From Litorimonas taeanensis (GTDB taxonomy: Bacteria > Pseudomonadota > Alphaproteobacteria > Caulobacterales > Maricaulaceae): a DNA stretch of 64,000 nucleotides. The first letter of the stretch is position 1. Every line of letters starts with the position of its first letter. The translations under genes were made by a program, and so were the position numbers. The stretch is from NCBI RefSeq assembly GCF_003634015.1, contig NZ_RBII01000001.1:868001-932000 (forward strand). The letters are read 5' to 3'. The notes beneath the pieces were generated by a model. That model made no database searches. It was given only the letters and a program-made list of their open reading frames with translations, and had not been told where the DNA came from. Positions 34,117 through 47,350 of this stretch are shown here, piece by piece.

Positions 34117-35095
34117 CGAAGGCTGCTGTTGGATCATCTTGGAGCCACAACTTTACGGCATAAGCAGAAACGCCGGCAATCCAAAGCATCCAGCCAGACC
34201 AAGCGGCCGCCAAGGCCGCCATACCTAGAACAGCGACAAACATAATCAATGGGTTGGAAAGCCTCTCAAACATAGCCTGAAAAACGATAGATGGATTGTC
34301 TGTTCCCAAACCCGAAATTGCCGTGATGAAGTCAGGGTTTCCCGAAACGGCGATCAAAACAATCATGTAAACGATATAATAAGCAATATACCCACCTACA
34401 TAAGTCACGAGATAAGCCCCAAAAAGAGGCCAGAACCTGCGCTTTGTAATGTTCTTAGCCGATAGAATGTGCACTTTTTTTGTCAGCGCAGTTAAAGCTG
34501 CTGCGCAAGCCACCCGAACTGGAAAAACAACTAACGCAAAAATTATCACGGCGATTACGGCAAAAACAACGACAGCCGCACCTAAGACCGGCGATAAAAA
34601 GCCAAACACGCCCCCTATTATGCCCGCAAGCATACTCAGTAAAACTGTGACGAAAAACATGAGAACATAAAACCCTAGCTGTACTAGCATGTTTCGCATG
34701 GTGAAGGCATTAAACCGTATAGGTAGACGTGCGGGCTCCTCTCCCGTTAGGTACTTCCGATAAAAGGCGGCTTCGCCTAATGCGCTAGAAATCCATATCC
34801 CTAACATAAATAAGCCATATATAGGCAGAGCGTTTCCAACAGAAGATAAGTATGCAATTGGTGCCTCCGTATCATTGGACAAGACTGCCCTATTATAAAT
34901 CCAACTCGCTTCAGAGAACTCTGCCATAACAGGCATTAAAAATGGTACGGTGACTAAGAAGACTACAAAGATCACAGCACTATGCCAAAACCAAAGGCGT
35001 AAAGCATAGTCCTTCCCTCCCGATGTGTTGAACCAAGCCGTAGTGGCCTGTCCGAAATCATACTTGGCTTGTGGATCTCTAACTTCGACGTTCAT
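34112..35095 (-). CDS. hypothetical polytopic membrane protein
   Basis: 327 residues with about six hydrophobic segments ([64 protein letters not shown], a long valine-rich one, [15 protein letters not shown], and one near the end). A soluble N-terminus of ~35 residues precedes them. No motif points to a function and I do not recognise a family. It is divergent from trmFO, whose start is 85 bp away. Inner membrane. Confidence 0.75.
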
Positions 35096-35180
35096 TATAT
35101 ACCCTCACAACCTAGTGATATCTGCATTCCGAGTCTTTGGCGGATTGATTGTTAGAGCTTCCTGCCCTATTGGCTCGTCC

Positions 35181-36578
35181 ATGGTCAAGGCAGTACATAT
35201 CATCGGCGCGGGATTAGCAGGATCAGAGGCCACTTGGCAGTGCGTCTCGCGCGGCGTACCCGTCATATTGCATGAGATGCGCCCAGACAGAATGACCGAA
35301 GCACATCAAGGCTCTGGTTTCGCGGAACTCGTCTGTTCAAATTCATTTCGTTCGGATGACGCACTAGGAAATGCTGTTGGCCTTCTCCATGAGGAAATGC
35401 GGCGTGCTGGTAGCCTGGTCATGGGCATGGGTGATATGACAAAGCTTCCTGCGGGTGGAGCCCTCGCAGTAGATAGAGAGGCTTTTTCAGAAGCTATCAC
35501 AACAATATTGCAACAACACCCACTTGTTACGATTGAGTATGGGGAAGTCAAAGGCCTACCGCCTAAAGAATGGGGTAATACAATTATTGCTACAGGGCCT
35601 CTTACAGCACCCGCATTGGCTCAAGATATTTTACAAACAACAGGAGAGGACAGTTTAGCCTTTTTTGATGCGATAGCCCCAATCGTTTATAAAGACAGCA
35701 TCAATTTTGATATTGCTTGGATGCAGTCCCGATATGACAAAAAAGGCCCTGGTGGAGACGGAGCCGACTATATCAATTGTCCGCTTGATAAAGAGCAATA
35801 TGAAACCTTTATCGAAGCCCTTGTCTCTTCTGAACAAACTGAATTTAAAGACTTTGAAAAAGACACACCTTATTTCGAGAGTTGCCTCCCTATAGAAGTC
35901 ATGGCGTCTCGTGGAGCAGAAACTTTGCGCTGGGGACCAATGAAGCCTGTCGGTCTAACAAATCCTCATAATCCAACAGTAAAAGCTCATGCCATTGTTC
36001 AGCTAAGGCAAGATAATGCCCTTGGCACACTTTACAATATGGTTGGTTTCCAAACGAAAATGAAGTATGGGGCACAAACTGAAATCTTAAAAACCATCCC
36101 CGGGTTAGAGAAAGCTGTATTTGCCCGATTAGGCGGAATTCATAGAAACACCTTCATCAACTCTCCGAAATTACTCAACGATCAGCTCCAACTGAAAGTC
36201 AGACCTGACCTACGTTTCGCCGGTCAAATTATGGGCGTTGAAGGCTATGTGGAATCGTCCGCTTTAGGACTTATCGCGGGCCGCCTTGCCGCCGCACAAG
36301 CATTGGGTCAAACAGATATAAAACCACCCCGAACCACCGCATTAGGCGCTTTAATGGAACATGTAACAGGCGGTTTCATGGACGGTCCAAAAGCTAAATT
36401 TCAACCAATGAATGTAAACTTTGGTTTGTTCCCCCCCATGGAAGAAGAAATTATTTACAAATCTCCTGATGGTAAGCGCTTGCGCGGCAAAGATAAAACA
36501 CGTCACCGTAAAGGCTTAATGGCTAAGCGAGCTCTCAGAGATATAAATGTATGGGTGAAAGATGGCCTTGCAAGCTAA
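35181..36578 (+). CDS. trmFO: methylenetetrahydrofolate--tRNA-(uracil54-C5)-methyltransferase
   Basis: 465 residues from ATG 35181, which gives [17 protein letters not shown] with the FAD-binding GxGxxG. The frame opens 52 codons earlier without family similarity. [29 protein letters not shown] and [12 protein letters not shown] are TrmFO marks. It makes ribothymidine 54 in the tRNA T-loop using methylene-THF and FADH2. Convergent with the GDYXXLXY gene, four bases apart. Confidence 0.96.
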
Positions 36579-36582
36579 GGCC

Positions 36583-37074
36583 TTATCGTTTGGGGTTTAT
36601 TATATTCTTATTCTCATCGGCCAAACCAACTAATATCGCTCGCCCCGTTTCATCAACCTTGAAGACACCGTATCGTGCAGAGACATAATCTTGCGCCGTT
36701 CCATTTTCAAAATAAAATCTTGGGCTGCCAATATTGATACCAAACCGCTCTTTAATATAGGCGATTTTATACTCCTCGTCAGAAGTCGTAACATCCCCTA
36801 CCCTTAGAAATTCACCGACTCCTTCTTTATCAGTAAAGATTAGTGTGCCTTGAGGTTCTAATTTATCTTGAGGGATGTTTTCTGAGCGGTCTTGAGCATA
36901 TTGCAGTGCCATATAATCACCCATCATCAAGGCTCTTGGGTCAACAGGGCGTAACTCCAACAAGACTATCCTACCATTGGCTCGCAGCTGCTCTAACGAG
37001 TAAATTTGTGAGCTTAACAATGCTACGATAATTACACCCGTAAATGCGATAATGAGATAGCGCAGCCACGTCAT
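36583..37074 (-). CDS. GDYXXLXY domain protein
   Basis: 163 residues. An N-terminal TM helix or signal anchor (YLIIAFTGVIIVALLSSQIY), then the family signature GDYMALQY near residue 52 in the context LRPVDPRALMMGDY. The rest is a beta-rich domain probably outside the inner membrane. Function unknown. Genes of this family usually follow DUF2157/DUF4401 genes, as here, with a four-base overlap. Confidence 0.9.
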   Translation of the reverse strand: MTWLRYLIIAFTGVIIVALLSSQIYSLEQLRANGRIVLLELRPVDPRALMMGDYMALQYAQDRSENIPQDKLEPQGTLIFTDKEGVGEFLRVGDVTTSDEEYKIAYIKERFGINIGSPRFYFENGTAQDYVSARYGVFKVDETGRAILVGLADENKNIINPKR

Positions 37075-39173
37075 AAATAGCGCTCACGAGCAGATATCTT
37101 ATCAGCGAAAAGATATATCATGAGGAATGTAAAGCCCACCCCCAACAACAGATAGGACTTAACACCTAAGCTCAAACTAAGGTCGTAATACAACATATAA
37201 AGAAAATAAATTTGTCCCAGCACACCAATTATTGCAAGAGTGCGAGACCCCACAATGTATCCTAAAAGCACCAATAGAAGTGCAGAAGCGCCGCCAAATG
37301 GTAATAATGCCATTGCGAAAATTAAAGGCCCCAACACCAATAGCGGTGGTCGCCATTTACTTATATTACCCTTATCTTTGTTTAACCAAAACATGATGAA
37401 AGCGATTAAAATCAGACTTACACCTTTTATGTCCCATCCAATGTCAGAAAAAACATCCTCACCAACCAAGGTTTCGATTCTATTAGTGTGAATAAGTGCG
37501 ACCCCTAATAATGCAGGGGCTATCAAAAAGGCTGTGCCGGCAGAAGCAAAATAACGGCCGAACAAGGGGCGAGTTAGTAAAAAAGTACCTGCTAAACTCG
37601 ATACAGTAAGAAATGCTATTTCTGCTAGCCGGTTATCAAAATGATGGAATAATTCGAACCCCACGCATCCGATAAAAATTCCAGCGGTAAAAAACTCAAT
37701 TATACGATCTTTTATAGACAATAAGGCAAGTCCACTGAGTGCCATTGCCGTCCACAAAACCACGTCTGTATTATGCGTTAAAAACCCTATACCGAAAAGG
37801 ATAGCAGAAAAACCAACAACAAGAAGAGTATTAAAAAAGTGTCTTGTGAAAGGACTCTTTATCTTTCGCCTCATAAAGAGAGCGAGCAAGAAAATGTTTC
37901 CGCCACATAATAAGAGAGGGCCACCTTCAGGCCTTATCCTGCTAAAAACTAAGGCTAAGAATACACCTAAGAACACTATACCAAATAGGGCAGCCACAAC
38001 ACCTGCAATCGCCAAAAAAAGCTCTACATACCACGGCGCCTCATCCTCTTTGGTGTGCAACGCGTATTGTAGGTTAGCAATACCTTCATTTGATAAGAAG
38101 GGGCTTATATGATTCCAAGACACGTTTTTCTCTAATCTATTTCCAGATATCTTATGATGGGTTGGATACGACGCTTTCAACACAGAAGCGAAATGCTTAA
38201 ATAGTATAGCCATGCCTATAACGAGGCCTACCGTTCCAAGAAACATAAGAAATATTCCAATAACCCCTCCAAATAAATCAAATTCCAATAGAACTCGGAA
38301 GAATATTTGAACAAAAATTACAAAACCAATGAAGGTGGAGAGACACAACTCGGCGAGGCTAGATCTAGTCCCATAAAGGTAGATTAACTTGAAACAAACG
38401 AGAGATAAGTAAGATAAAGATAGAATAGTTGATACAAAAGTGGATTGCCCCCAAAATGTTGTAGTAAATCCATAAATCACTACGGCTCCAAAAACCGCGG
38501 TGTATAAAACCCGGAACCAAAGGGCACTTGCCCAATCACGCCCTGGCCGTAAAAACTTATCGAAAACAACACGCATAACAAAAACTAGAAATGCGATAGT
38601 GGCGATAAACAGCTCTGCTTTAGTTTCTTGCCCTACAAGCCTTAACCCAGTTTCTGCATATGAAAAAATCGCAGTTAATGCTATAACTAGCCATACGGTC
38701 CAATGGGCTAAATTTCGAGACAGGGCTGCAAACGGCAGTGTAAAAGTCGCCCAAAGAGCAAACGGCGTGTAAATTAAGGCTGGTGTCTGATAAACTTGCC
38801 CAAATATTGCGAGGAAAACCCCTACCAAAACGGTTGAAACAATACCTAGAGCTTGAGGAATTTTACCATCAAGATTAAAGTGCAACCATGCGGTTAGACT
38901 TAATATAAACCCGACACCAACAATTGAGAATTTATACATATCGGCGAGATCGAACCAATTATGGGCAAAGAAGAATATAACGCCTGAGAGGATATGGCCA
39001 ATAGCTAGGGCAAAAAGCGCTTTCAAAGCCCACCCATTCCACTCAGAATCATCTCGAAACAAATCCAATGACGACAAAAAAGAACTTTTTACGTCCATTC
39101 CGCAGTTCACTAACGTCAAAAATTGGTTTCTTGATAAACTCTCTATTTTGTCATGGGCCGTCTGCACACTCAA
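37071..39173 (-). CDS. DUF2157-DUF4401 fused membrane protein
   Basis: 700 residues. Residues ~10-190 match DUF2157: a charged helix, then GVIFFFAHNWFDLADMYKF and GIVSTVLVGVFLAIFGQVYQT. The C-terminal half begins PWYVELFLAIAGVVAALFG near residue 375 and fits DUF4401, with about ten TM helices. These two are usually neighbouring genes; here they are one reading frame. Function unknown, perhaps envelope-related. It overlaps both neighbours by four bases, so the three genes form a tight operon. Confidence 0.83.
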   Translation of the reverse strand: MSVQTAHDKIESLSRNQFLTLVNCGMDVKSSFLSSLDLFRDDSEWNGWALKALFALAIGHILSGVIFFFAHNWFDLADMYKFSIVGVGFILSLTAWLHFNLDGKIPQALGIVSTVLVGVFLAIFGQVYQTPALIYTPFALWATFTLPFAALSRNLAHWTVWLVIALTAIFSYAETGLRLVGQETKAELFIATIAFLVFVMRVVFDKFLRPGRDWASALWFRVLYTAVFGAVVIYGFTTTFWGQSTFVSTILSLSYLSLVCFKLIYLYGTRSSLAELCLSTFIGFVIFVQIFFRVLLEFDLFGGVIGIFLMFLGTVGLVIGMAILFKHFASVLKASYPTHHKISGNRLEKNVSWNHISPFLSNEGIANLQYALHTKEDEAPWYVELFLAIAGVVAALFGIVFLGVFLALVFSRIRPEGGPLLLCGGNIFLLALFMRRKIKSPFTRHFFNTLLVVGFSAILFGIGFLTHNTDVVLWTAMALSGLALLSIKDRIIEFFTAGIFIGCVGFELFHHFDNRLAEIAFLTVSSLAGTFLLTRPLFGRYFASAGTAFLIAPALLGVALIHTNRIETLVGEDVFSDIGWDIKGVSLILIAFIMFWLNKDKGNISKWRPPLLVLGPLIFAMALLPFGGASALLLVLLGYIVGSRTLAIIGVLGQIYFLYMLYYDLSLSLGVKSYLLLGVGFTFLMIYLFADKISARERYL

Positions 39174-39991
39174 ACTCTGCCGCTAAGCACAGCCTTAAGC
39201 AAGCGAATTTGTTTTGTAAAAGCCAGATAGGATATAGATTGGGTTTTAGGATCATATTTCTCATGGGTAAGTTTTGCTATATATGGGCCAATCAAAGACG
39301 CATAAGCTATGGCAGGGAAAGCTATCGCTTCTAACGTCTTTAATTCAGACCGCCCCTGTTTATAGGTCTTCTCGGCTTGCGCACACAGTCTCTCATAAGT
39401 CACTTCACGCAACATAGTTTCGTGATAAAACCCATACCCTCTGGCGAGCCCTGTTAAGCCCCAAGCGGTCCCCATTGTCTCTACGGCTGCTTGCGGATCA
39501 ACACCGCACAGCTTCACCGCTATTTTCATAAGAACACCAGATGTTTTCGCGCAGTAATCTTGCGCATCAGATAAACTGCTGAATGGCCGTGGGTCTATGT
39601 CACGTTCACGACCATCTATTAACTGATCCACCCAATATCGAGGAATATCAAATTCTAAAAACAAGGCCCGCAGCGGTGTAGTAATCTCATGTTTTCTGAC
39701 CGTCTCAGTCTCGTAGATTTCCGTAATTACGTCGCGCCACCACTGATAACGTATTTGCCCTATCATAGGTTCGCTGACTAATTCTGGAATTCTCGCAAGT
39801 TCCAAATGAAAGGCATAAAGAAGAATCAATCGCTCTCGAACACCAGGTTCAGCGAATAAAGACGATCTGTATCTATCGGGATCAGCCTGTTCCAATCGAG
39901 CAATCACGTCTTGATGTAGAGAGAAAAGCAAAAATTTATCCAACCTCTTTATGTTTAACGCGTAAGTAAACTGTCTGCCCCTTGTGGTCAA
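39170..39991 (-). CDS. squalene/phytoene synthase-fold protein, NDUFAF6-like
   Basis: Up to 273 residues, start uncertain: TTG 39991 or a later TTG such as 39931, after AAGAGG. The blocks RLILLYAFHLELARIPELVSEPMIGQIRYQWWRD and GLARGYGFY are those of the alphaproteobacterial proteins related to mitochondrial NDUFAF6, a complex I assembly factor. The usual DxxxD catalytic motifs of prenyl synthases are not intact (LELAR, DAQDY region), so carotenoid or squalene synthesis is unlikely. First gene of the DUF2157 operon. Confidence 0.78.
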   Translation of the reverse strand: MTTRGRQFTYALNIKRLDKFLLFSLHQDVIARLEQADPDRYRSSLFAEPGVRERLILLYAFHLELARIPELVSEPMIGQIRYQWWRDVITEIYETETVRKHEITTPLRALFLEFDIPRYWVDQLIDGRERDIDPRPFSSLSDAQDYCAKTSGVLMKIAVKLCGVDPQAAVETMGTAWGLTGLARGYGFYHETMLREVTYERLCAQAEKTYKQGRSELKTLEAIAFPAIAYASLIGPYIAKLTHEKYDPKTQSISYLAFTKQIRLLKAVLSGRV

Positions 39992-40019
39992 AATCTAATC
40001 AGCATAGTCTCCACAAGGG
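39979..40019. promoter_or_regulatory. 9-bp inverted repeat flanking a possible promoter of the nickel-SOD operon
   Basis: Perfect arms CCCTTGTGG (39979-39987) and CCACAAGGG (40011-40019), 23 bases apart. TTGTGG inside the left arm and TAGTCT (40005-40010), next to the right arm, are 17 bases apart and could be -35 and -10 elements. Candidate operator; the regulator is unknown. Confidence 0.5.
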
Positions 40020-40068
40020 ACTAAATATTAACAGCAAATATTGCGCCTTTAAAAAGAGAGATATTTTC

Positions 40069-40275
40069 ATGAAACAGAAACTTAAAACTATCACAGTTTC
40101 ATCCGCTTTAGCGGCAATCGCAACACCTGCCCTCGCAGATGGCGGTCATGTGCATATGACCACAATGGAATCGATTGTTCACTTCCTATCCAGTCCAACA
40201 CATGGGCTGATCACCCTTGCCATTATTGCAACTGCTGGATTTGTTGCCGTTAAAATGCTTCGGAAAAAGTCTTAA
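40069..40275 (+). CDS. small secreted/membrane protein with N-terminal histidines, first gene of the sodN operon
   Basis: 68 residues from ATG 40069 (the open frame starts 29 codons earlier). A signal peptide ends near PALA-DGG; the mature start DGGHVHMTTMESIVHF is rich in His and Met. One TM helix (GLITLAIIATAGFVAVKML) and a basic tail RKKS follow. The stop codon overlaps the strong ribosome site of sodN. The HxH start and position suggest nickel handling for the SOD; a faint likeness to HupE/UreJ N-termini is only an impression. Confidence 0.7.
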   Translation: MKQKLKTITVSSALAAIATPALADGGHVHMTTMESIVHFLSSPTHGLITLAIIATAGFVAVKMLRKKS

Positions 40276-40287
40276 GGAGACCCAATA

Positions 40288-40779
40288 ATGTTACACACTT
40301 TACTTTCCAAATTTGACAACCATATCGATTCAGCTTCGGCCCATTGTGATATCCCCTGCGGTATTTACGATGCCCGTATTGTCACGTATTACGCAGTTTC
40401 AACACTTCGCCAGATGGACATTCTTCTTAGCTTAAAAGACAAGGGTCTCTCGGAGACAGCTTTTGCAATGCAAGCTGCTCGTAATACAGCCAAAAAAGAA
40501 GAAATGGCTGAAAACACAAAACATCAAACGCGCATTATTTGGGGTGACTTCATGAAGGGTGACCACTTGGTCAAACACCCCGGCGCTCACGAACTTGCCC
40601 ATAAAATTATGATGGCTGGATCAGCCTGTAAGCAAGACTTGCATCGTGAAGATGGACTTAAACTTGTTGAGCTTTGCAACGAATTTGCAGAAATGTTCTG
40701 GGACATGAAAGGCGTGAAAACTAAGAAGGTAACAACGCCATATGCGCCGAATGTCGAAGTGGTCGAACCTGATCTGTAA
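40288..40779 (+). CDS. sodN: nickel superoxide dismutase precursor
   Basis: 163 residues. The nickel hook HCDIPCGIY starts at His19; the mature enzyme would begin with that His and bind Ni through His1, Cys2, Cys6 and the backbone. The first 18 residues are the propeptide to be removed by SodX. A four-helix bundle follows. AAGGAG lies eight bases before the ATG, a strong site. It dismutates superoxide in the cytoplasm. sodX follows after six bases. Confidence 0.96.
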   Translation: MLHTLLSKFDNHIDSASAHCDIPCGIYDARIVTYYAVSTLRQMDILLSLKDKGLSETAFAMQAARNTAKKEEMAENTKHQTRIIWGDFMKGDHLVKHPGAHELAHKIMMAGSACKQDLHREDGLKLVELCNEFAEMFWDMKGVKTKKVTTPYAPNVEVVEPDL

Positions 40780-40785
40780 GTTATT

Positions 40786-41079
40786 ATGCTTTCCGCCATT
40801 AAGGTTGAGGGAGATAGTATGTCTCCCACGCTCTGCAATGGCGACTATATTGTAATAATAAAGCCCCGCTCTATAAGAGCGGGGCTTATTTTTGTTATAA
40901 ATCACCCTCGTCTCGGATGTATAGTGAAAAGGCTAGAAACAATCGGCGAGAGTGAACTCTGGTTCAAAGGTGACAACCCAATCTCCACTAGCTCTCTTAA
41001 AATAGGGCCCGTCCAACAAGAAATGTTACGAGGACGAGCTATTCTAGCTATTACTCCAAAAGGAATAAAGCGGCTTTAA
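40786..41079 (+). CDS. sodX: nickel-type superoxide dismutase maturation protease
   Basis: 97 residues, S26 signal-peptidase fold. The catalytic Ser11 is in VEGDSMSPTL and the Lys48 in GCIVKRLE. It has no membrane anchor, as expected for the cytoplasmic SodX protease that trims the SodN propeptide. The start ATG 40786 lacks a visible Shine-Dalgarno, so translation probably depends on coupling to sodN. A complete intrinsic terminator lies within codons 26-36. Confidence 0.9.
   Translation: MLSAIKVEGDSMSPTLCNGDYIVIIKPRSIRAGLIFVINHPRLGCIVKRLETIGESELWFKGDNPISTSSLKIGPVQQEMLRGRAILAITPKGIKRL
40861..40894 (+). terminator. intrinsic terminator embedded in the sodX coding sequence
   Basis: Perfect 11-bp arms AAGCCCCGCTC (40861-40871) and GAGCGGGGCTT (40877-40887), loop TATAA, followed by ATTTTTGTT. 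It lies 75-108 bases into sodX and 82 bases after the sodN stop. The same bases encode KPRSIRAGLIF in the SodX frame. It should end most sodN transcripts unless ribosomes on sodX cover it. Confidence 0.8.
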
Positions 41080-41094
41080 TCGCCTTACTTATCT

Positions 41095-42078
41095 TCAAGC
41101 CTCTTGCGCGTTCCCAGTATTCACACCGCGTTTCAAATTTAGTAAAATCAACAAAGGCGACGCAACAAAGATTGATGAGTACGTCCCAACAAAAACGCCC
41201 CAAATCATAGCAAATGAGAAGCCACGCAATCCGTCTCCCCCTAAGAAGTATAGAGCGAATAGGGCTAGTAATGTTGTAAATGATGTCAAAATCGTACGGC
41301 TTAACGTATCATTGATGGACAAGTTCAATACATCTGGCATTGGCATTTTCTTATATTTTCTCAGATTCTCTCGAACACGGTCGTAAACGATAACTGTGTC
41401 GTTAAGAGAATAACCAACAATCGTCAAAATTGCTGCGATAATCGAAAGGTTAAACTCAATTTGAGTAAGGCTGAAAATCCCAATGGTTAATATCACATCA
41501 TGAAATAGAGCCAGAACAGCGCCAAGTCCGAACTGCCATTCAAATCGAAACCAGATATAAGCCAACACCATGAATAAGGCGAGACCAACAGCCAAAGCCC
41601 CCTTTGTCCTCAGTTCTCCGGACACTTGCGACCCCACAGATTCTTGACTGCGAATGCCATCAGGCACAACAAAGCCCTCTATGTTTTCAACAAGGGCCGC
41701 TTGCGCTTTTTGCATAGCCTCTTGTTGTGCGGTGGCTCCGGTTTCATCACTTTCGGGCTGAAGCGGAATACCAATACGAACAAGGTCGTGCGGCTTAATG
41801 GCTGTTGTTGACGGCGCAATCCCTTGTACAGTGGCACCAGGGAAACCCGCATCTGCCATTACAGAGCGAATTTCCGCAAGGTCAGGCTCGCCTCCAGTAT
41901 CAATTTCAATGACGGTGCCGCCTGTGAAATCAATACCGTAATTAAGCCCTCGTGTCGTAAAGAGGAATATGGAAGCTATAATCGCTAATACACTCAAAGC
42001 ACCTGCAATCATACGCAGGTTGATGAAAGGAACCTTTGGTTCCTTTGGCAAAAATCGAACGAGAGAAATATCTTTCAT
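41095..42078 (-). CDS. secF: protein translocase subunit SecF
   Basis: 327 residues. TM1, then GLNYGIDFTGGTVIEI, the SecF signature, a periplasmic loop, and five further helices with IVGYSLNDTVIVYDRVREN and SINDTLSRTILTSFTTLLAL. With SecD it uses the proton gradient to pull translocated proteins out of the Sec channel. It starts 14 bases after secD. Convergent with sodX. Confidence 0.96.
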   Translation of the reverse strand: MKDISLVRFLPKEPKVPFINLRMIAGALSVLAIIASIFLFTTRGLNYGIDFTGGTVIEIDTGGEPDLAEIRSVMADAGFPGATVQGIAPSTTAIKPHDLVRIGIPLQPESDETGATAQQEAMQKAQAALVENIEGFVVPDGIRSQESVGSQVSGELRTKGALAVGLALFMVLAYIWFRFEWQFGLGAVLALFHDVILTIGIFSLTQIEFNLSIIAAILTIVGYSLNDTVIVYDRVRENLRKYKKMPMPDVLNLSINDTLSRTILTSFTTLLALFALYFLGGDGLRGFSFAMIWGVFVGTYSSIFVASPLLILLNLKRGVNTGNAQEA

Positions 42079-42092
42079 TGTCCAGTTCCCTC

Positions 42093-43706
42093 TTAAATCG
42101 GTAGTGTTTTAGGACGTGAGCGTCGAAGCCACGTCGCCGTTAACAAACGTGCGAAGACGACCGCCGTAAAGACGCTCATGATAATCCCAATTGCCAATGT
42201 AACCGCAAAGCCGCGAATTGGTCCTGAACCGACAAAATAAAGTGTTACAGCGGCAATTAAGGTCGTGATGTTCGCGTCCAAAATTGGGGCAACTGAACGA
42301 CGATAACCTGTTTCAATTGCATTAACTGGTGGACGTCCAATATAGCTTTCCTCTCGAATGCGTTCAAATATCAATACATTCGCATCAACCGCCATACCAA
42401 TCGTCAAAATAATTCCAGCAATACCTGGTAGTGTCAGCGTTGAACCAAACAATGACAAAGCCGCAGCAATCAGAATGATATTCACCGTCAAGGCAATGTT
42501 AGCAATTGTTCCAAACCTTAAACCATAAGATAGCCACATAAACACAGCCACGCCAGCCAGACCGATAAATGAAGCAATTTTACCTGCATTGATAGAGTCT
42601 TGCCCCAATCCTGGCCCTACAGTCCGCTCCTCTACAATTATCAGCTTGGCCGGTAATGCACCCGCATTCAATAAGAGAGACAATTCGCGCGCGCTATCGA
42701 TTGTAAAGCTACCTTCGATAAAACCATTACCGGACGGAATAGCACTCTGAATATTTGGTGCAGTAATTATCTCATTATCCAAGACAACAGCAAAACGCTG
42801 ACCAATATTCTTTAACGTCAGATCACCGAACAATGTTGCACACCGAATATTGAAACTAAAATTCACTATTGGGTAATTGCCTGTTGGATGAAGACCTTCT
42901 GAGGAAGATTTCAAACATTCACCTGTAATACGTGTACGTTTATCGACAATAAGGCCCGTACTACCATCTTCCATTGGGAAATACGCCGCACCTGGTGGCA
43001 AACGGCCGTCAATGGCCGCGCGTAGTGCCGCAGCATTCTCAGAGTCTTTGCGAACAAGGTGGAATGAGAGATTAGCTGTTTTATTAATACGGCTCTTAAT
43101 TTCATCAATATTTTTCGCCCCCGGCACTTGAAGTAAAATTCGGCTATCACCTTCTCTCGCTAACGTCATTTCTGTCGTGCCAGTCGGGTCAATCCGTTTA
43201 CGCAAAACTTCAATAGATTGCGCAATAGTCCGCCGTTGGATTTCCTCAATATTAGCCTGAGTAATTGAGACGCGAAAACCTTTATCGCCATTTTGTTCAA
43301 CCAGCGTCGTACGATCTTGGCTTAAACCGCCCGGATCAACCAATTGAGACTGGCTTCGCAGAACTTCTAACGCTTTTGTCATATCAGCAGCGTCGCGCAA
43401 TCTGCCCACTACTGCATTGTTCTCAACTCGAATAAATTCTGTACGAATGCGCCCCGCATCAGAAAATCCCTGACGGACATTTTCTCGTTCATTGTCAAGA
43501 GCTTGTTCCAACACACTCGTTAAGTCGACCTCAAGGAGCATATGTGCCCCGCCCTGCAAATCGAGCCCTAAATTCAACGTCCTTTGCATAGGCGACGGTA
43601 ATTTAGCCCTCACATCAGCAGGCACAGCGTTTGGAAGAGCAAATAAAAGACCGAATAAAACGGCCCCTAAAATAAAGGTAATTTTCCAGCGGGAGAAAAA
43701 TAGCAT
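42093..43706 (-). CDS. secD: protein translocase subunit SecD
   Basis: 537 residues. TM1, LGLDLQGGAHMLLEVD, a long periplasmic region with two parts (VLRKRIDPTGTTEMTLAREGDSRILLQVPG is the P1 mark), then five TM helices with GMAVDANVLIFERIREE and DANITTLIAAVTLYFVGSGPIRGFA. It forms the SecDF complex with the next gene and YajC. yajC lies 51 bp upstream in the same direction. Confidence 0.96.
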   Translation of the reverse strand: MLFFSRWKITFILGAVLFGLLFALPNAVPADVRAKLPSPMQRTLNLGLDLQGGAHMLLEVDLTSVLEQALDNERENVRQGFSDAGRIRTEFIRVENNAVVGRLRDAADMTKALEVLRSQSQLVDPGGLSQDRTTLVEQNGDKGFRVSITQANIEEIQRRTIAQSIEVLRKRIDPTGTTEMTLAREGDSRILLQVPGAKNIDEIKSRINKTANLSFHLVRKDSENAAALRAAIDGRLPPGAAYFPMEDGSTGLIVDKRTRITGECLKSSSEGLHPTGNYPIVNFSFNIRCATLFGDLTLKNIGQRFAVVLDNEIITAPNIQSAIPSGNGFIEGSFTIDSARELSLLLNAGALPAKLIIVEERTVGPGLGQDSINAGKIASFIGLAGVAVFMWLSYGLRFGTIANIALTVNIILIAAALSLFGSTLTLPGIAGIILTIGMAVDANVLIFERIREESYIGRPPVNAIETGYRRSVAPILDANITTLIAAVTLYFVGSGPIRGFAVTLAIGIIMSVFTAVVFARLLTATWLRRSRPKTLPI

Positions 43707-43757
43707 GTTTAAGCCTAAGACAAAAACACCGTCAATTATTTGACGGCGTAATAAGAG

Positions 43758-44093
43758 TTATTTCTTTTTTGTTGAAGCGTCATTTGCTGCAACGCTTCGG
43801 TTGCGAACATCTGCAATCATTGTTCGAACAACTTTGATATCAGTATCACCAAATGTTACTGTAAGTTCTTCATCAGCAACCTTTTTAACCTTACCAATTA
43901 AACCGCCATTTGTGACAACGGTATCACCGCGCATAATTTCAGAGAGAAGTTGACGGTGGGCTTTCACCCGTTGGTTTTGCGGTCTTATGATAAGAAAATA
44001 AAAAATAAGGCCGATTAAAAGAAACGGCATAATCTGCATTGCGAGGCCACCCGCGCCAACAGGAGTTGCAGACTGCATAATCAAAGCGAACAT
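43758..44093 (-). CDS. yajC: preprotein translocase subunit YajC
   Basis: 111 residues. One TM helix (IMPFLLIGLIFYFLIIRPQNQR) followed by the soluble YajC domain with MRGDTVVTNGGLIGKVKKV. It associates with SecDF in the inner membrane. First gene of yajC-secD-secF. Confidence 0.94.
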   Translation of the reverse strand: MFALIMQSATPVGAGGLAMQIMPFLLIGLIFYFLIIRPQNQRVKAHRQLLSEIMRGDTVVTNGGLIGKVKKVADEELTVTFGDTDIKVVRTMIADVRNRSVAANDASTKKK

Positions 44094-44179
44094 ATACGCT
44101 CCCCAATATCCTAGACGTCATTTGTGACGCGTTTACATAACGGCCTATATAGGCAGGATATGAATGATTGCAACGAAAA

Positions 44180-44207
44180 GGGGCCGCAATTTTGTGATTG
44201 CAGCCCC
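44180..44207 (-). terminator. intrinsic terminator after the LysM gene
   Basis: Near-perfect arms GGGGCCGCAA (44180-44189) and TTGCAGCCCC (44198-44207), one mismatch. On the minus strand TTTTCGTT follows. It separates the LysM gene from yajC. Confidence 0.65.
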
Positions 44208-44233
44208 AAAACTCAGTCAATCTATGTGTAGAG

Positions 44234-44971
44234 CTAACGCGTTAAACAATGTCCTTGAGGTAAAAGGAGTTTTTGCCCGGGTTTCAAATTATCTTTGTCA
44301 CCAATTCCGTTTGTCGAAACGATATCGTCAACACTTGTGCAGGTTCTACGCGCAATACCATAAAGCGTATCCTTAGGCAGTACGGCATAAATAGACGATG
44401 TTTGAACACCTACAGGCTGTACAACACGCATGACCGAGCCATTAGCATATGGCGTGTTAGATATAACTGGCTGAGTAGGTGATAGATATGTTGATGAAAC
44501 CTTCACTTGCGTTGGCAGAATTAAAGACTGTCCTAAAGCGATGGCGCTCCCCTGTATGCCATTTGCCTCTTGTATATCCTGAATGCTGATATTGTATCGT
44601 TTTGAGATATTATAGAGCGTGTCACCCTTTACGACATTGTGGATAACCGTAGTATCTACGATCGATGTCGCTGTCGTTGGTACAGGTGTATCAGAATGCG
44701 AATATTGGACATCACCACGCGTATAGCTTTGATACGTTTGGACACGCCTTGCTTCATCAATAACGCTTTGTTGCTCATTACTGATGGCTGTTCCCTGTTG
44801 GACAGGAGCATGCTGTGCGTGGACAACGGCTACATTTCCGCCATTTACTGACAAGCTCCCATAAACACGAGGTTTAAATCTATCATCATCACTACTGGAC
44901 ACCTGAGCTAAAGCGCTAACTCCAGATAAAGCTAAAGTTATCGTCACGATTGGTAAAACTAATTTACGCAT
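44234..44971 (-). CDS. LysM domain envelope protein
   Basis: 245 residues from ATG 44971 (GGGG six bases upstream); another ATG lies four codons before. A signal peptide ends near ALAQ. A low-complexity Ser/Thr/Val region follows, then LysM 1 (HNVVKGDTLYNISKRYNIS ... SLILP) and LysM 2 (YAVLPKDTLYGIARRTCTS ... KLLLP). No peptidase M23 domain follows, although the gene holds the place where many alphaproteobacteria have a LysM-M23 protein. Likely binds peptidoglycan. Confidence 0.85.
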   Translation of the reverse strand: MRKLVLPIVTITLALSGVSALAQVSSSDDDRFKPRVYGSLSVNGGNVAVVHAQHAPVQQGTAISNEQQSVIDEARRVQTYQSYTRGDVQYSHSDTPVPTTATSIVDTTVIHNVVKGDTLYNISKRYNISIQDIQEANGIQGSAIALGQSLILPTQVKVSSTYLSPTQPVISNTPYANGSVMRVVQPVGVQTSSIYAVLPKDTLYGIARRTCTSVDDIVSTNGIGDKDNLKPGQKLLLPQGHCLTR

Positions 44972-45049
44972 TGCAAGCCCCATTTATAAAACTGAGCTAT
45001 TATCACCGAACAGGGTTAAAAAAGTGTTGCAGACCTATCTCTTAGTGCA

Positions 45050-45886
45050 TTACGCATCTGCATCAGCAGGGGATTTCTCTAATATTCCAACAGAAAATAT
45101 CGAAATCTCGTACAACAAATATATAGCAGCCCCTAAGACTAGCTGGGTAATTGGGTCTGGAGGCGTAACAAAAGCCGCGAAGACAGCAATTCCAAATAAG
45201 GCGTATTTCCGTGCCGATTTCAAAGCCGAAGCGCTGACTATTCCTGCACGCCCCAGTAAGGATAAAATAACTGGCAATTGAAAGGATAAACCAAACGCTA
45301 AAAACAGTGTTGTTGCGAGTTTCAAGTAATCGCTAATTTTAGTGAGAAGTTCAACCTTATCCGTATCACCAATGGCCTGCTGATTGAAGGCAAATTCCAT
45401 CACATAGGGGAACACGAAAAAGAAGACTAATGAAGCACCAACCATAAACAAAACAGGAGACGCAAAGAGATAGGGTAAAAAAGCCCGTTTTTCATTTTTG
45501 TACAAACCAGGCGCCACAAATCGGTAAAGTTGATAGGCAAGGATCGGAAAACTCAAAACAATACCGCCAAATATACATATCTTGATACGTACAAAGAAAG
45601 TCTCTAGCGGCTGCGTCGCAATCAAACCTGAATCCAAAGCCGCCTCACCCGCTGCCATCAAGTCCTTATTATATCGGTCCAATCCTGTGTAAAATGGATA
45701 CATTAAAAGCTGTTGAATTTGATCCAAAAAAGGAATGCATACTAAACAGCCTAGAACTAATCCTAACACGCACTTGATTAAACGCGAACGGAGTTCAATA
45801 AGATGATCCATAAGCGGCGCGCGGCTCTCGTCCACATCATCCTCACGAGTGCTCGCTTTACTCTCTATAGCGTTAAGCCCCGCCAC
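45050..45886 (-). CDS. tatC: Sec-independent translocase subunit TatC
   Basis: 278 residues from GTG 45886, chosen because AAGGAG lies seven bases upstream; ATG 45913 is the alternative. It overlaps the tatB stop by 14 bases. LMDHLIELRSRLIKCV, the N-terminal TatC mark, and YQLYRFVAPGLYKNEKRAFLP are present, with six TM helices. TatC binds the twin-arginine signal peptide and forms the receptor complex with TatB. Confidence 0.93.
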   Translation of the reverse strand: MAGLNAIESKASTREDDVDESRAPLMDHLIELRSRLIKCVLGLVLGCLVCIPFLDQIQQLLMYPFYTGLDRYNKDLMAAGEAALDSGLIATQPLETFFVRIKICIFGGIVLSFPILAYQLYRFVAPGLYKNEKRAFLPYLFASPVLFMVGASLVFFFVFPYVMEFAFNQQAIGDTDKVELLTKISDYLKLATTLFLAFGLSFQLPVILSLLGRAGIVSASALKSARKYALFGIAVFAAFVTPPDPITQLVLGAAIYLLYEISIFSVGILEKSPADADA

Positions 45887-46265
45887 TAGAGGGCTCCTTG
45901 CGTTTAGGTTCATCAACACCGTCACCACTGTCAGATGAAGATTGAGTGTTACTTTCTGAAGTCCCTTCCCCAACTGCGCCTCTGAGGTCTCGATTAAGGT
46001 CTTGCATTTCAGATTTTATATCACCGGCCAAATGTTCTATTGATCCCATTTTACGAAGCTCGGCAATTTCTTTACGCATCTCAGCGATTTCATCTTCGGC
46101 ACCCATTTCATCAAATGCATCTTTAAACTCTTGGCCCATAGACCTAATCTTATGCATAAACTGGCCAATTTTTCTCATTAACTTAGGCAAGTCTTTTGGC
46201 CCGACAACGATGATTGCCAACAAAGATAAGACAATGATTTCTGCAAAACCAAGCTGCGGGAGCAT
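45873..46265 (-). CDS. tatB: Sec-independent translocase subunit TatB
   Basis: 130 residues. One TM helix with the conserved LGFAEIIVLSLLAIIVVGPKDLPKLMR, an amphipathic helix, and an acidic, Ser-rich tail. Partner of TatC. It lies between tatA (44 bp upstream) and tatC. Confidence 0.93.
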   Translation of the reverse strand: MLPQLGFAEIIVLSLLAIIVVGPKDLPKLMRKIGQFMHKIRSMGQEFKDAFDEMGAEDEIAEMRKEIAELRKMGSIEHLAGDIKSEMQDLNRDLRGAVGEGTSESNTQSSSDSGDGVDEPKRKEPSSGGA

Positions 46266-46309
46266 GAGATTCCCTTTAAACGACCACTAAAACTTTCAGG
46301 CTTAAGGCC

Positions 46310-46522
46310 TTATTTTTTAGTCGCTTTTTCTTTTTTGGGCGTTACGTCTATAGCGTCATCAACAGCGTCTGATACATCATCAGCACCATCTTTTAAGCCC
46401 CTTTTGAAACTTGTAATTCCCTTACCCATGTCCCCCATGATAGAGCTAATTTTACCACGCCCACCAAAAACAAGCACAGCAAGAACAAGTATAATAGCAA
46501 TTTGCCAAGGTCCAATAGCCAT
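46310..46522 (-). CDS. tatA: Sec-independent translocase subunit TatA
   Basis: 70 residues. [33 protein letters not shown] is the TatA TM and amphipathic helix, with a Lys-rich end. It forms the protein-conducting ring of the Tat system. It follows scpB by 75 bp. Confidence 0.94.
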
Positions 46523-46597
46523 AGTCTCTTCCTTAAATCCTAAATCTACCTAAGACGATGTTAGCCTAGAGGCAATACACGTCTTAAATATAGTCAG

Positions 46598-47350
46598 TTA
46601 GTCTGTTTCACCTTCATCCAAAAAATCTTCAAAGAAATTCGGATCTTCTGTTTCCATTTCCATGGGGTCTTCATCATTTGCCAACTCGTCCATCATCATT
46701 GGCTCTGGCATTTCAAAATCTTTCGGCAGTCTCGGGTCAAGAAGTCCAGCCGCCTTCAGGTCATCTCGTCCTGGTAGGTCAGCAATTGTCTCTAAGTTGA
46801 AATGTGCCAAAAACCCATCTGTTGTCCCATATGTTACTGGGCGACCAGGGGTACGACGACGCCCTCTCAATCGAACCCAAGACAACTCCATCAAAACGTC
46901 AATTGTCCCCTTACTAACAGCAACACCTCTAACATCTTCAATTTCCGCCCGCGTAACCGGCTGGTGATAAGCTATGATAGCAAGAGTTTCTAATGCTGCG
47001 TTTGAAAGCTTTCTAGGGGCCTCTTTTACATCGGTTAGACTTTGCTCCAAATCAGGTGCGGTTTGAAACCGCCATTTATCAGCAACACGGACCAGATTAA
47101 CCCCTCGCCCTGCATAATCGCGCGTCAACCGGGCAAGCAGAGCGCCGACATCCGCGTCCTCAGGCATTCGCTCTCGTAATGTTTGCGTATCAATTGGCTC
47201 CATCGCAGCAAATAAAAGAGCCTCGAGCAAGCGTAAATCTTTATCAATAGCTTCCGCTTCTGGCGGAGTTTTCAGACGGTCAGACAAACGCACCACATCT
47301 TTCTCAATCGCAGCATTAGCCTGATCTACACGGTTAGAAGTATTGGACAT
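46598..47350 (-). CDS. scpB: segregation and condensation protein B
   Basis: 250 residues. Winged-helix ScpB with LRLLEALLFAAMEPID, LETLAIIAYHQPVTRAEIEDVRGVAVS and YGTTDGFLAHF. The acidic C-terminal extension (DEDPMEMETEDP) is typical of alphaproteobacteria. With ScpA and SMC it forms condensin. It overlaps scpA by one base. Confidence 0.94.
   Translation of the reverse strand: MSNTSNRVDQANAAIEKDVVRLSDRLKTPPEAEAIDKDLRLLEALLFAAMEPIDTQTLRERMPEDADVGALLARLTRDYAGRGVNLVRVADKWRFQTAPDLEQSLTDVKEAPRKLSNAALETLAIIAYHQPVTRAEIEDVRGVAVSKGTIDVLMELSWVRLRGRRRTPGRPVTYGTTDGFLAHFNLETIADLPGRDDLKAAGLLDPRLPKDFEMPEPMMMDELANDEDPMEMETEDPNFFEDFLDEGETD

Follow-up and report, generated by a model that had tools for sequence, protein, structure and literature searches.

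A terminator-like hairpin embedded in the sodX coding sequence appears to be maintained as RNA structure in a family of sodN-sodX loci

The early coding sequence of sodX, a putative maturation protease gene behind the nickel superoxide dismutase gene sodN, carries a terminator-like hairpin that, judged by codon choice across a family of related loci, is selected as RNA structure. Its sequence has the GC-rich stem, the short loop (3 nt), and the U-rich tract directly 3' of the stem that characterize an intrinsic (Rho-independent) terminator. Taking the evidence as a whole, we consider it likely that the hairpin is a selected intrinsic terminator of the sodN message over which sodX is layered. 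The relevant features of the window, by which we mean the whole 64-kb stretch of DNA that was analyzed, are as follows:

40288..40779, plus strand: sodN, nickel superoxide dismutase, 163 aa (TIGR02753, Pfam Sod_Ni, Shine-Dalgarno TAAGGAG)
40786..41079, plus strand: sodX, putative SodN maturation protease, 97 aa (Pfam Peptidase_S24/S26; Shine-Dalgarno absent)
40861..40887, plus strand: putative terminator hairpin, 12 bp, loop ATA, over sodX codons 26-34 (K P R S I R A G L) (scan, folding, covariation)
40888..40896, plus strand: U-rich tail ATTTTTGTT of the hairpin on the sodNX transcript (T excess over synonymous expectation, 40 sequences)
40850..40860, minus strand: A-rich flank, giving a U-rich tail TATTATTACAA for transcripts from secF (minus-strand scan site; A excess, 40 sequences)
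41095..42078, minus strand: secF, convergent neighbor, 15 nt beyond the sodX stop (TIGR00966, 324 bits)

SodN scored 119.1 bits against TIGR02753, over the NCBIfam cut-off of 90, and also matched Pfam Sod_Ni. The sodX ATG (40786) is spaced 6 nt from the sodN stop. SodX exceeded the cut-offs of both Pfam Peptidase_S24 (42.1 bits) and S26 (30.5 bits) and stayed slightly below that of TIGR02754 (61.1 vs. 63.25 bits), so it was named by gene order and domain and not by TIGR02754. The original prediction, made from this DNA alone, had called sodX the protease gene; adjacency to sodN and the S24/S26-type domain agree with that identity, whereas the TIGR02754 cut-off does not back it.

The hairpin stem AAGCCCCGCTC/GAGCGGGGCTT at 40861-40887 can be extended by one pair to 12 bp, including 8 GC pairs, and the full hairpin reads AAGCCCCGCTCT-ATA-AGAGCGGGGCTT (40861-40887). 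Its U-rich tail ATTTTTGTT occupies sodX codons 35-37, and hairpin and tail together span codons 26-37. A terminator embedded in sodX had been predicted here with an 11-bp stem and a TATAA loop at codons 26-36. The GC-rich hairpin with its U-rich tail is indeed present and starts at codon 26; the stem is one pair longer, the loop is reduced to ATA, and the stem ends at codon 34 with the tail beyond it. Folding of positions 40849-40902 gave -27.9 kcal/mol, compared to -8.7 ± 2.7 for 200 dinucleotide shuffles (z = -7.0, 0/200 as good). When the protein was held fixed and the codons were redrawn, the sodX region of the window folded at -23.3 vs. -7.0 ± 3.2 (p = 0.001). The terminator score of the hairpin was 35, and among the 311 control coding segments taken from the window none reached 28. 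A generic scan of positions 35000-47000 returned 17 terminator-like sites vs. 12.4 ± 4.2 in shuffles, and a bare scan match therefore means little. Among these 17 sites the sodX hairpin had the most pairs (12); the only others with at least 10 pairs, at 44207 and 43749, were both on the minus strand. Allowing up to 3 mismatches, the hairpin sequence occurred only once in the 2.78-Mb genome, and a mobile palindromic repeat inserted in genes was rejected on this ground. A known RNA family was likewise rejected: 11 Rfam matches (E≤1, 39800-41300) overlapped the hairpin and all were below their gathering scores.

Relatives were collected by a SodX search of 100 genomes, including the window's own (matches in 26), by a SodN search of the family (matches in 46 of 137), and by a SodN-alignment scan of named genomes, from which the best 80 loci of 304 encoding stretches were used. 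By SodN identity we divided the loci into a family (L029-L071 and L105, 62-91%) and outgroups (L072-L104 and L106-L108, 44-51%), the division being our own choice. The family includes Litorimonas, Hellea, Robiginitomaculum, and Algimonas, together with other Caulobacterales and others. The analysis set (n = 43) consisted of 42 family loci, taken from the best 80, and the window. The order sodN-sodX was kept in all 42 family loci reaching far enough, and the sodX frame was open in 44 family relatives: the 42 loci of the set plus L008 and L023, which carry the hairpin and stand outside the set. In L057 and L105 the contig is too short to include sodX; L027 and L028, not accepted as SodX, were omitted from the profile. 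In the wider set sodX was not found in 9 of 108 loci, family locus L105 among them.

Hairpins scoring at least 20 were called terminator-like, and the first 140 nt of sodX were scanned in the family. In the synonymous null each protein was kept fixed and codons were redrawn from the usage of its own locus (1000 shuffles per sequence). In a first version of the scan, which allowed stems to extend into the U tract, 22 of the 42 family loci reached score 20. The scan was revised after that shortfall, controls and shuffles were rerun, and the results for the family and the distinct outgroup sequences come from the revised scan.

Terminator-like hairpins were found in 37 of the 43 family sequences, compared to 0.86 expected from synonymous shuffles; the same score was reached by 7/920 control coding segments of these loci and by 3/311 in the window. 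Because synonymous recoding yields so few such hairpins, neither chance nor a by-product of the protein accounts for them. The synonymous null for folding agreed: 33 of 43 sequences had p<0.01 and 39 had p<0.05, the misses being L029, L043, L050, and L052. Thirty-five of the 37 scoring hairpins were at the ancestral place, and the other two sequences have a terminator-like hairpin elsewhere in early sodX (register shifted in L036, at +25 in L059). The distance from the sodN stop to the start of the stem was 67-100 nt in all but one of 36 scored loci, the exception being L059 (14 nt); the hairpin is thus internal to the operon, after sodN and before most of sodX. Six family sequences scored below 20. 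L029 has only a weak hairpin (score 17, folding p = 0.17), L063 (score 12.5, p = 0.003) and L045 (no scan match, p = 0.033) have imperfect stems, and L043, L050, and L052 gave no scan match. In L043 neither folding nor the terminator scan found a hairpin in early sodX.

The tail was under selection as well. On the plus strand it contained on average 7.5 T in 12 nt vs. 6.6 under the synonymous expectation (z = 6.0, 40 sequences). Many relatives have a broken tail ATTTATGT, which may act as a weak terminator, and the tails of L049, L030, and L046 are poor in U (TTTGTCGTTG). In L030, L031, L040, and L046, 3-4 extra codons are paired into a longer stem.

Codons face codons across the stem: Lys pairs with Leu/Phe, Pro/Ala with Gly, and Arg with Ala/Pro/Ser. 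Codon tables were built from 40 of the 43 sequences (L036, L050, and L052 dropped). Among the 37 Arg rows the combination CGC-GCG occurred 10 times, CGG-CCG/TCG 24 times, and crossed combinations never (Fisher p = 7.6e-9, in a test that ignores relatedness, which inflates the significance of covariation). Three Arg rows fell outside the 2x2 test: L063 (CGT-CCG) and L029 (CGC-AAG) are mismatched, and L030 (CGT-GCG) forms a G-U pair. Pro stood opposite GGG in 32 of 33 rows and Ala opposite GGC in 6 of 6, in total 38 of 40 rows, with one Ser row (L029) left out of the table. In the 31 rows with Lys opposite Leu/Phe codons, AAG was matched by C in 10/10 and AAA by T in 20/21; four of the 35 Lys rows, with Ser, Tyr, or Arg partners, lie outside this test, and the third base of Lys fits its partner in 33 of all 35. 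The Gly codon of the stem was GGG in 33 of 40 rows, compared to 18% of Gly codons across the loci.

All three tables remained significant when the set was thinned to 35 and to 21 representatives. With 10 representatives (<75% identity) the p values were 0.048, 0.083, and 0.1, and only the Arg table, marginally, was below 0.05. Mapped on a sodN tree (a single-gene tree, midpoint rooted, supports not used), the third base of Arg and its partner required at least 12 and at least 14 changes when each side was counted singly, and only 15 as a pair. In the 36 of the 40 codon-table sequences that could be aligned gap-free, 94.9% of cells were paired and covariation was 0.416, compared to 0.196 in shuffles (0/500) and at most 0.12 in slid controls. 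Six pairs had two-sided changes, a less unusual number that 57/500 shuffles of these 36 sequences reached. In L037 and L038, CAC-GTG replaces CGC-GCG/CGG-CCG, so that His and Val stand in for Arg and Ala/Pro with the pairs kept. Compensating synonymous changes in relatives had been named beforehand as a check on whether the stem is kept, and codon covariation and the synonymous null bear this out strongly.

In the outgroups, 13 of 89 distinct sodX genes contained an embedded hairpin scoring at least 20, compared to 0.71 expected and 6/1143 in controls. The other 76 scored below 20, and the embedded hairpin is therefore not a general need of sodNX; the layout, as predicted from these genes, is recurrent and not universal. 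Six of the 13 come from Psychrobacter, where sodN was found in 7 of 105 genomes. In six of the 7, a hairpin unlike that of the family lies inside sodX at about +35 and covers the codons for S-M-H-P, which we take to be the active-site box; the seventh has a weaker stem there (13.5). This count stems from the first version of the scan and agrees with the revised scan for distinct sequences. One Psychrobacter sequence (L160) has ATC and GAA across the stem where the others have ACC and GAG, with the pair kept. The Psychrobacter tails contain 6 T on the plus strand and 2-4 on the minus strand, which argues for use on the sodN side. Among outgroup sodN-sodX gaps of at least 25 nt, 4/43 held a hairpin scoring at least 20 vs. 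0.035 expected from plain shuffles.

Two outgroup observations stand by themselves. A Chloroflexota sodX (L077, about 2551-2590) has a strong embedded terminator-like hairpin at about +52 (score 34.5). In L171 and L182, from the family of the Synechococcus genome that contains L090, a terminator-like hairpin (25.5 each) lies in the sodN-sodX gap.

Translation signals differ between the two genes. A Shine-Dalgarno match of at least 4 bases preceded sodN in 37 and sodX in 3 (TAAG twice, AGGT once) of 39 sequences, four of the 43 (L059, L053, L051, and L062) having been dropped because the start was unclear. In the window TAAGGAG lies ahead of sodN, and sodX has only a 4-nt TAAG match at the sodN stop. 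The original prediction had drawn this contrast for the window, where it is correct, and it proves to be a trait of the family. Family sodX start codons are mostly at the sodN stop or a few bases from it, which together with the absent Shine-Dalgarno suggests reinitiation, and sodX is probably translated in this way.

According to the mechanism we propose, most polymerases that have passed sodN would stop at about 40890-40896, the hairpin lying approximately 80 nt after the sodN stop. Termination at the hairpin would yield a sodN-only message, and the remaining polymerases would read through into sodX. Ribosomes can keep intrinsic terminator hairpins from forming (PMC5021804), and a ribosome within the first 25 sodX codons, close behind the polymerase, would block the hairpin and allow full-length sodX. 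A single promoter would then supply SodN in quantity and the protease sparingly, on the assumption that SodX is needed in small amounts. The original prediction had proposed this model, with ribosomes covering the hairpin; the sequence evidence supports it in part, and termination of secDF is an addition to it. Transcripts of secDF, arriving from the opposite side, would be ended by the same hairpin. Termination and its efficiency, the ribosome effect, the SodN:SodX ratio, and the minus-strand use are what we infer from these sequences.

In 38 of 42 family loci a convergent secF abuts or overlaps sodX, at a distance between -65 and +47 nt. The two genes lie tail to tail (window 41079-41095), with a 4-nt overlap of the stop codons in 17 of the 42, a tight arrangement that is widespread in the family. 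With this neighbor and a U-rich tail on both strands, the sequence has the marks of a bidirectional terminator. On the minus strand 26 of 43 sequences scored at least 20, compared to 6/901 antisense control segments, and A was in excess on the 5' flank, the U tail for secF transcripts (z = 5.7, 40 sequences, synonymous expectation). By strand, 25 of the 43 scored on both, 12 on plus only, 1 on minus only, and 5 on neither. Given the selection for U-rich tails on both strands and the near absence of space between sodX and the converging secF, the hairpin probably works in both directions and terminates secDF transcripts too. The original prediction overlooked both secF and the opposite-strand tail. 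With selection of similar strength on the minus-strand tail, part of the selection and of the covariation may be due to the ending of secDF transcripts.

The same data raise the alternative that the hairpin serves chiefly to terminate the convergent secDF operon and lies inside sodX only through the overlap or abutment of secF and sodX, its effect on sodX being tolerated. We regard this as unlikely, although it draws on the proximity of secF, the A excess, and the minus-strand scores. L066 and L070, which have no secF in the locus, score on both strands, and in L070 another minus-strand ORF abuts sodX. In L059 (2500-2600) there are two early-sodX hairpins, an ancestral one that is better on the minus strand (26 vs. 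21; tail ATTTTTAATC) and a new one at +25 with a plus-strand tail, as though each had taken over one of the two terminator roles. Against this alternative, the plus-strand U excess is at least as strong as the A excess. L039, whose secF lies at a distance of 1439 nt, has a stem with a plus-strand score of 26.5 and lacks a minus match at the site, and in L063 an imperfect stem is still kept with secF 294 nt away. L050 and L052, which lack the embedded stem, have a strong terminator-like hairpin in the sodN-sodX gap, and the 8 nt after that stem contain 6 T on plus vs. 3 on minus in L050 and 5 on each strand in L052. Loss of the embedded stem together with a replacement hairpin supports a role in sodN/sodX expression as read from these loci. 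The 13 outgroup embedded hairpins, which were chosen by their plus tail, had a weaker minus tail in 12 cases and an equal one in 1.

A role in RNA stability or processing, for example as a 3' barrier that shields sodN mRNA after cleavage within sodX, appears improbable. A strong 3' hairpin is able to shield an upstream message, and the U-poor tails of L049, L030, and L046 would suit such a barrier; however, a barrier would not require a U tract, and the plus-strand tails are enriched in U, as is the sequence after the replacement hairpins, where the first 8 nt include 6 T in L050 and 5 in L052. We give hardly any credence to the idea that the hairpin slows ribosomes and so aids folding or membrane targeting of the protease. 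Its early and near-constant codon position across the family would fit, but selection on the U tails would not, and the L050 and L052 hairpins lie upstream of the sodX start codon, where no effect on elongation is possible. Equally far-fetched is the view that a conserved protein motif, K-P-R-x-x-x-[APS]-G-[LF], gives rise to the palindrome incidentally, without an RNA role. Lys with Leu/Phe, Pro with Gly, and Arg with Ala/Pro/Ser can pair in codon register, and the protein therefore permits the stem. Yet 39 of 43 sequences fold better than 95% of their protein-fixed codon shuffles, synonymous positions track the opposite arm (as with Gly GGG), and inserted codons lengthen the stem; this view was rejected on the synonymous null and the codon covariation.

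The proposed terminator of the sodN message has counterparts in known systems. In the E. coli rplL-rpoB operon a partial terminator lowers expression of the downstream gene; the operon logic is the same as proposed for sodNX, but that terminator is intergenic and outside coding sequence. Internal terminators also set stoichiometry in Clostridia ABC importers, where a stem-loop after the abundant first gene partly terminates the operon message (PMC9045158). The sodX hairpin likewise follows the first gene and would lower the downstream one; unlike those intergenic stem-loops, it is formed by codons of the downstream gene. An intergenic position as in Clostridia was seen in the family set only in L050 and L052, and not in the window. 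Bidirectional intrinsic terminators of convergent genes (PMC7566282, PMC12207403) have the same GC stem with an A tract before and a U tract after it, but the sodX hairpin is about 200 nt inside one gene, ahead of most of the coding sequence. In Zymomonas mobilis, terminators that separate in-line genes are enriched in A flanks too (PMC7566282), so that the A flank is no proof of two-way use. The mapped 3' ends of that organism fall into four classes, one of which comprises terminators internal to coding regions (PMC7566282), and the predicted sodX terminator resembles this class in lying inside a gene more than 50 bp past the start codon. RNA 3' ends within ORFs, from premature termination, are known in E. 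coli, where 20% of all ends in one data set fit intrinsic termination (PMC7815308); ends inside an ORF are what we predict for sodX. Each of these two catalogues concerns one genome, and their accessible parts do not show codon covariation, within one gene or family-wide. As in the ribosome-mediated attenuation of bmrCD (PMC4191407), the position of the ribosome relative to polymerase would decide whether the hairpin forms, but here the covering ORF is the functional enzyme gene sodX itself; no other leader peptide was seen upstream of the hairpin.

In Streptomyces the sodN-sodX intergenic region is conserved, and the stretch it matches, a small-RNA target, forms the 5' end of sodN mRNA (PMC3919588). 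The layout there therefore differs from the one described here, and the accessible part of that report was not found to mention a sodN-sodX terminator. In titles and abstract beginnings, a coverage that leaves most subscription journals outside, no published description of a terminator inside sodX was found, and the Clostridia importer terminators (PMC9045158) come nearest.

More tentatively, and slightly short of what we would call probable, terminator and working protease domain may share nucleotides family-wide, with RNA pairing having steered amino-acid changes (His/Val, paired inserts) and sodX translation acting as its own antiterminator, so that dosage is set in one dual-purpose sequence. 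Psychrobacter and scattered lineages would then have reached the layout at other codons, a sign that abundant SodN with scarce SodX has been selected for repeatedly. Terminators are usually sought between genes; here one is apparently held in coding sequence across a family by codon-level compensation. The sodX hairpin provides a testable case of two codes in one sequence with RNA structure steering protein sequence, and sodNX one of an operon fixing an enzyme-to-maturase ratio. It also suggests screening the second genes of enzyme-maturase operons for early covarying terminators.

On the other side of sodN, a 68-aa protein is encoded directly upstream (40069-40275, plus strand). Inspected by eye, it seems to have a signal peptide and a single membrane segment; it contains an HVHM stretch, and it gave a weak match to Pfam TrbC, under the cut-off. 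A nickel-handling role would be a guess. Relatives of this protein precede sodN in 12 of 42 family loci (tblastn).
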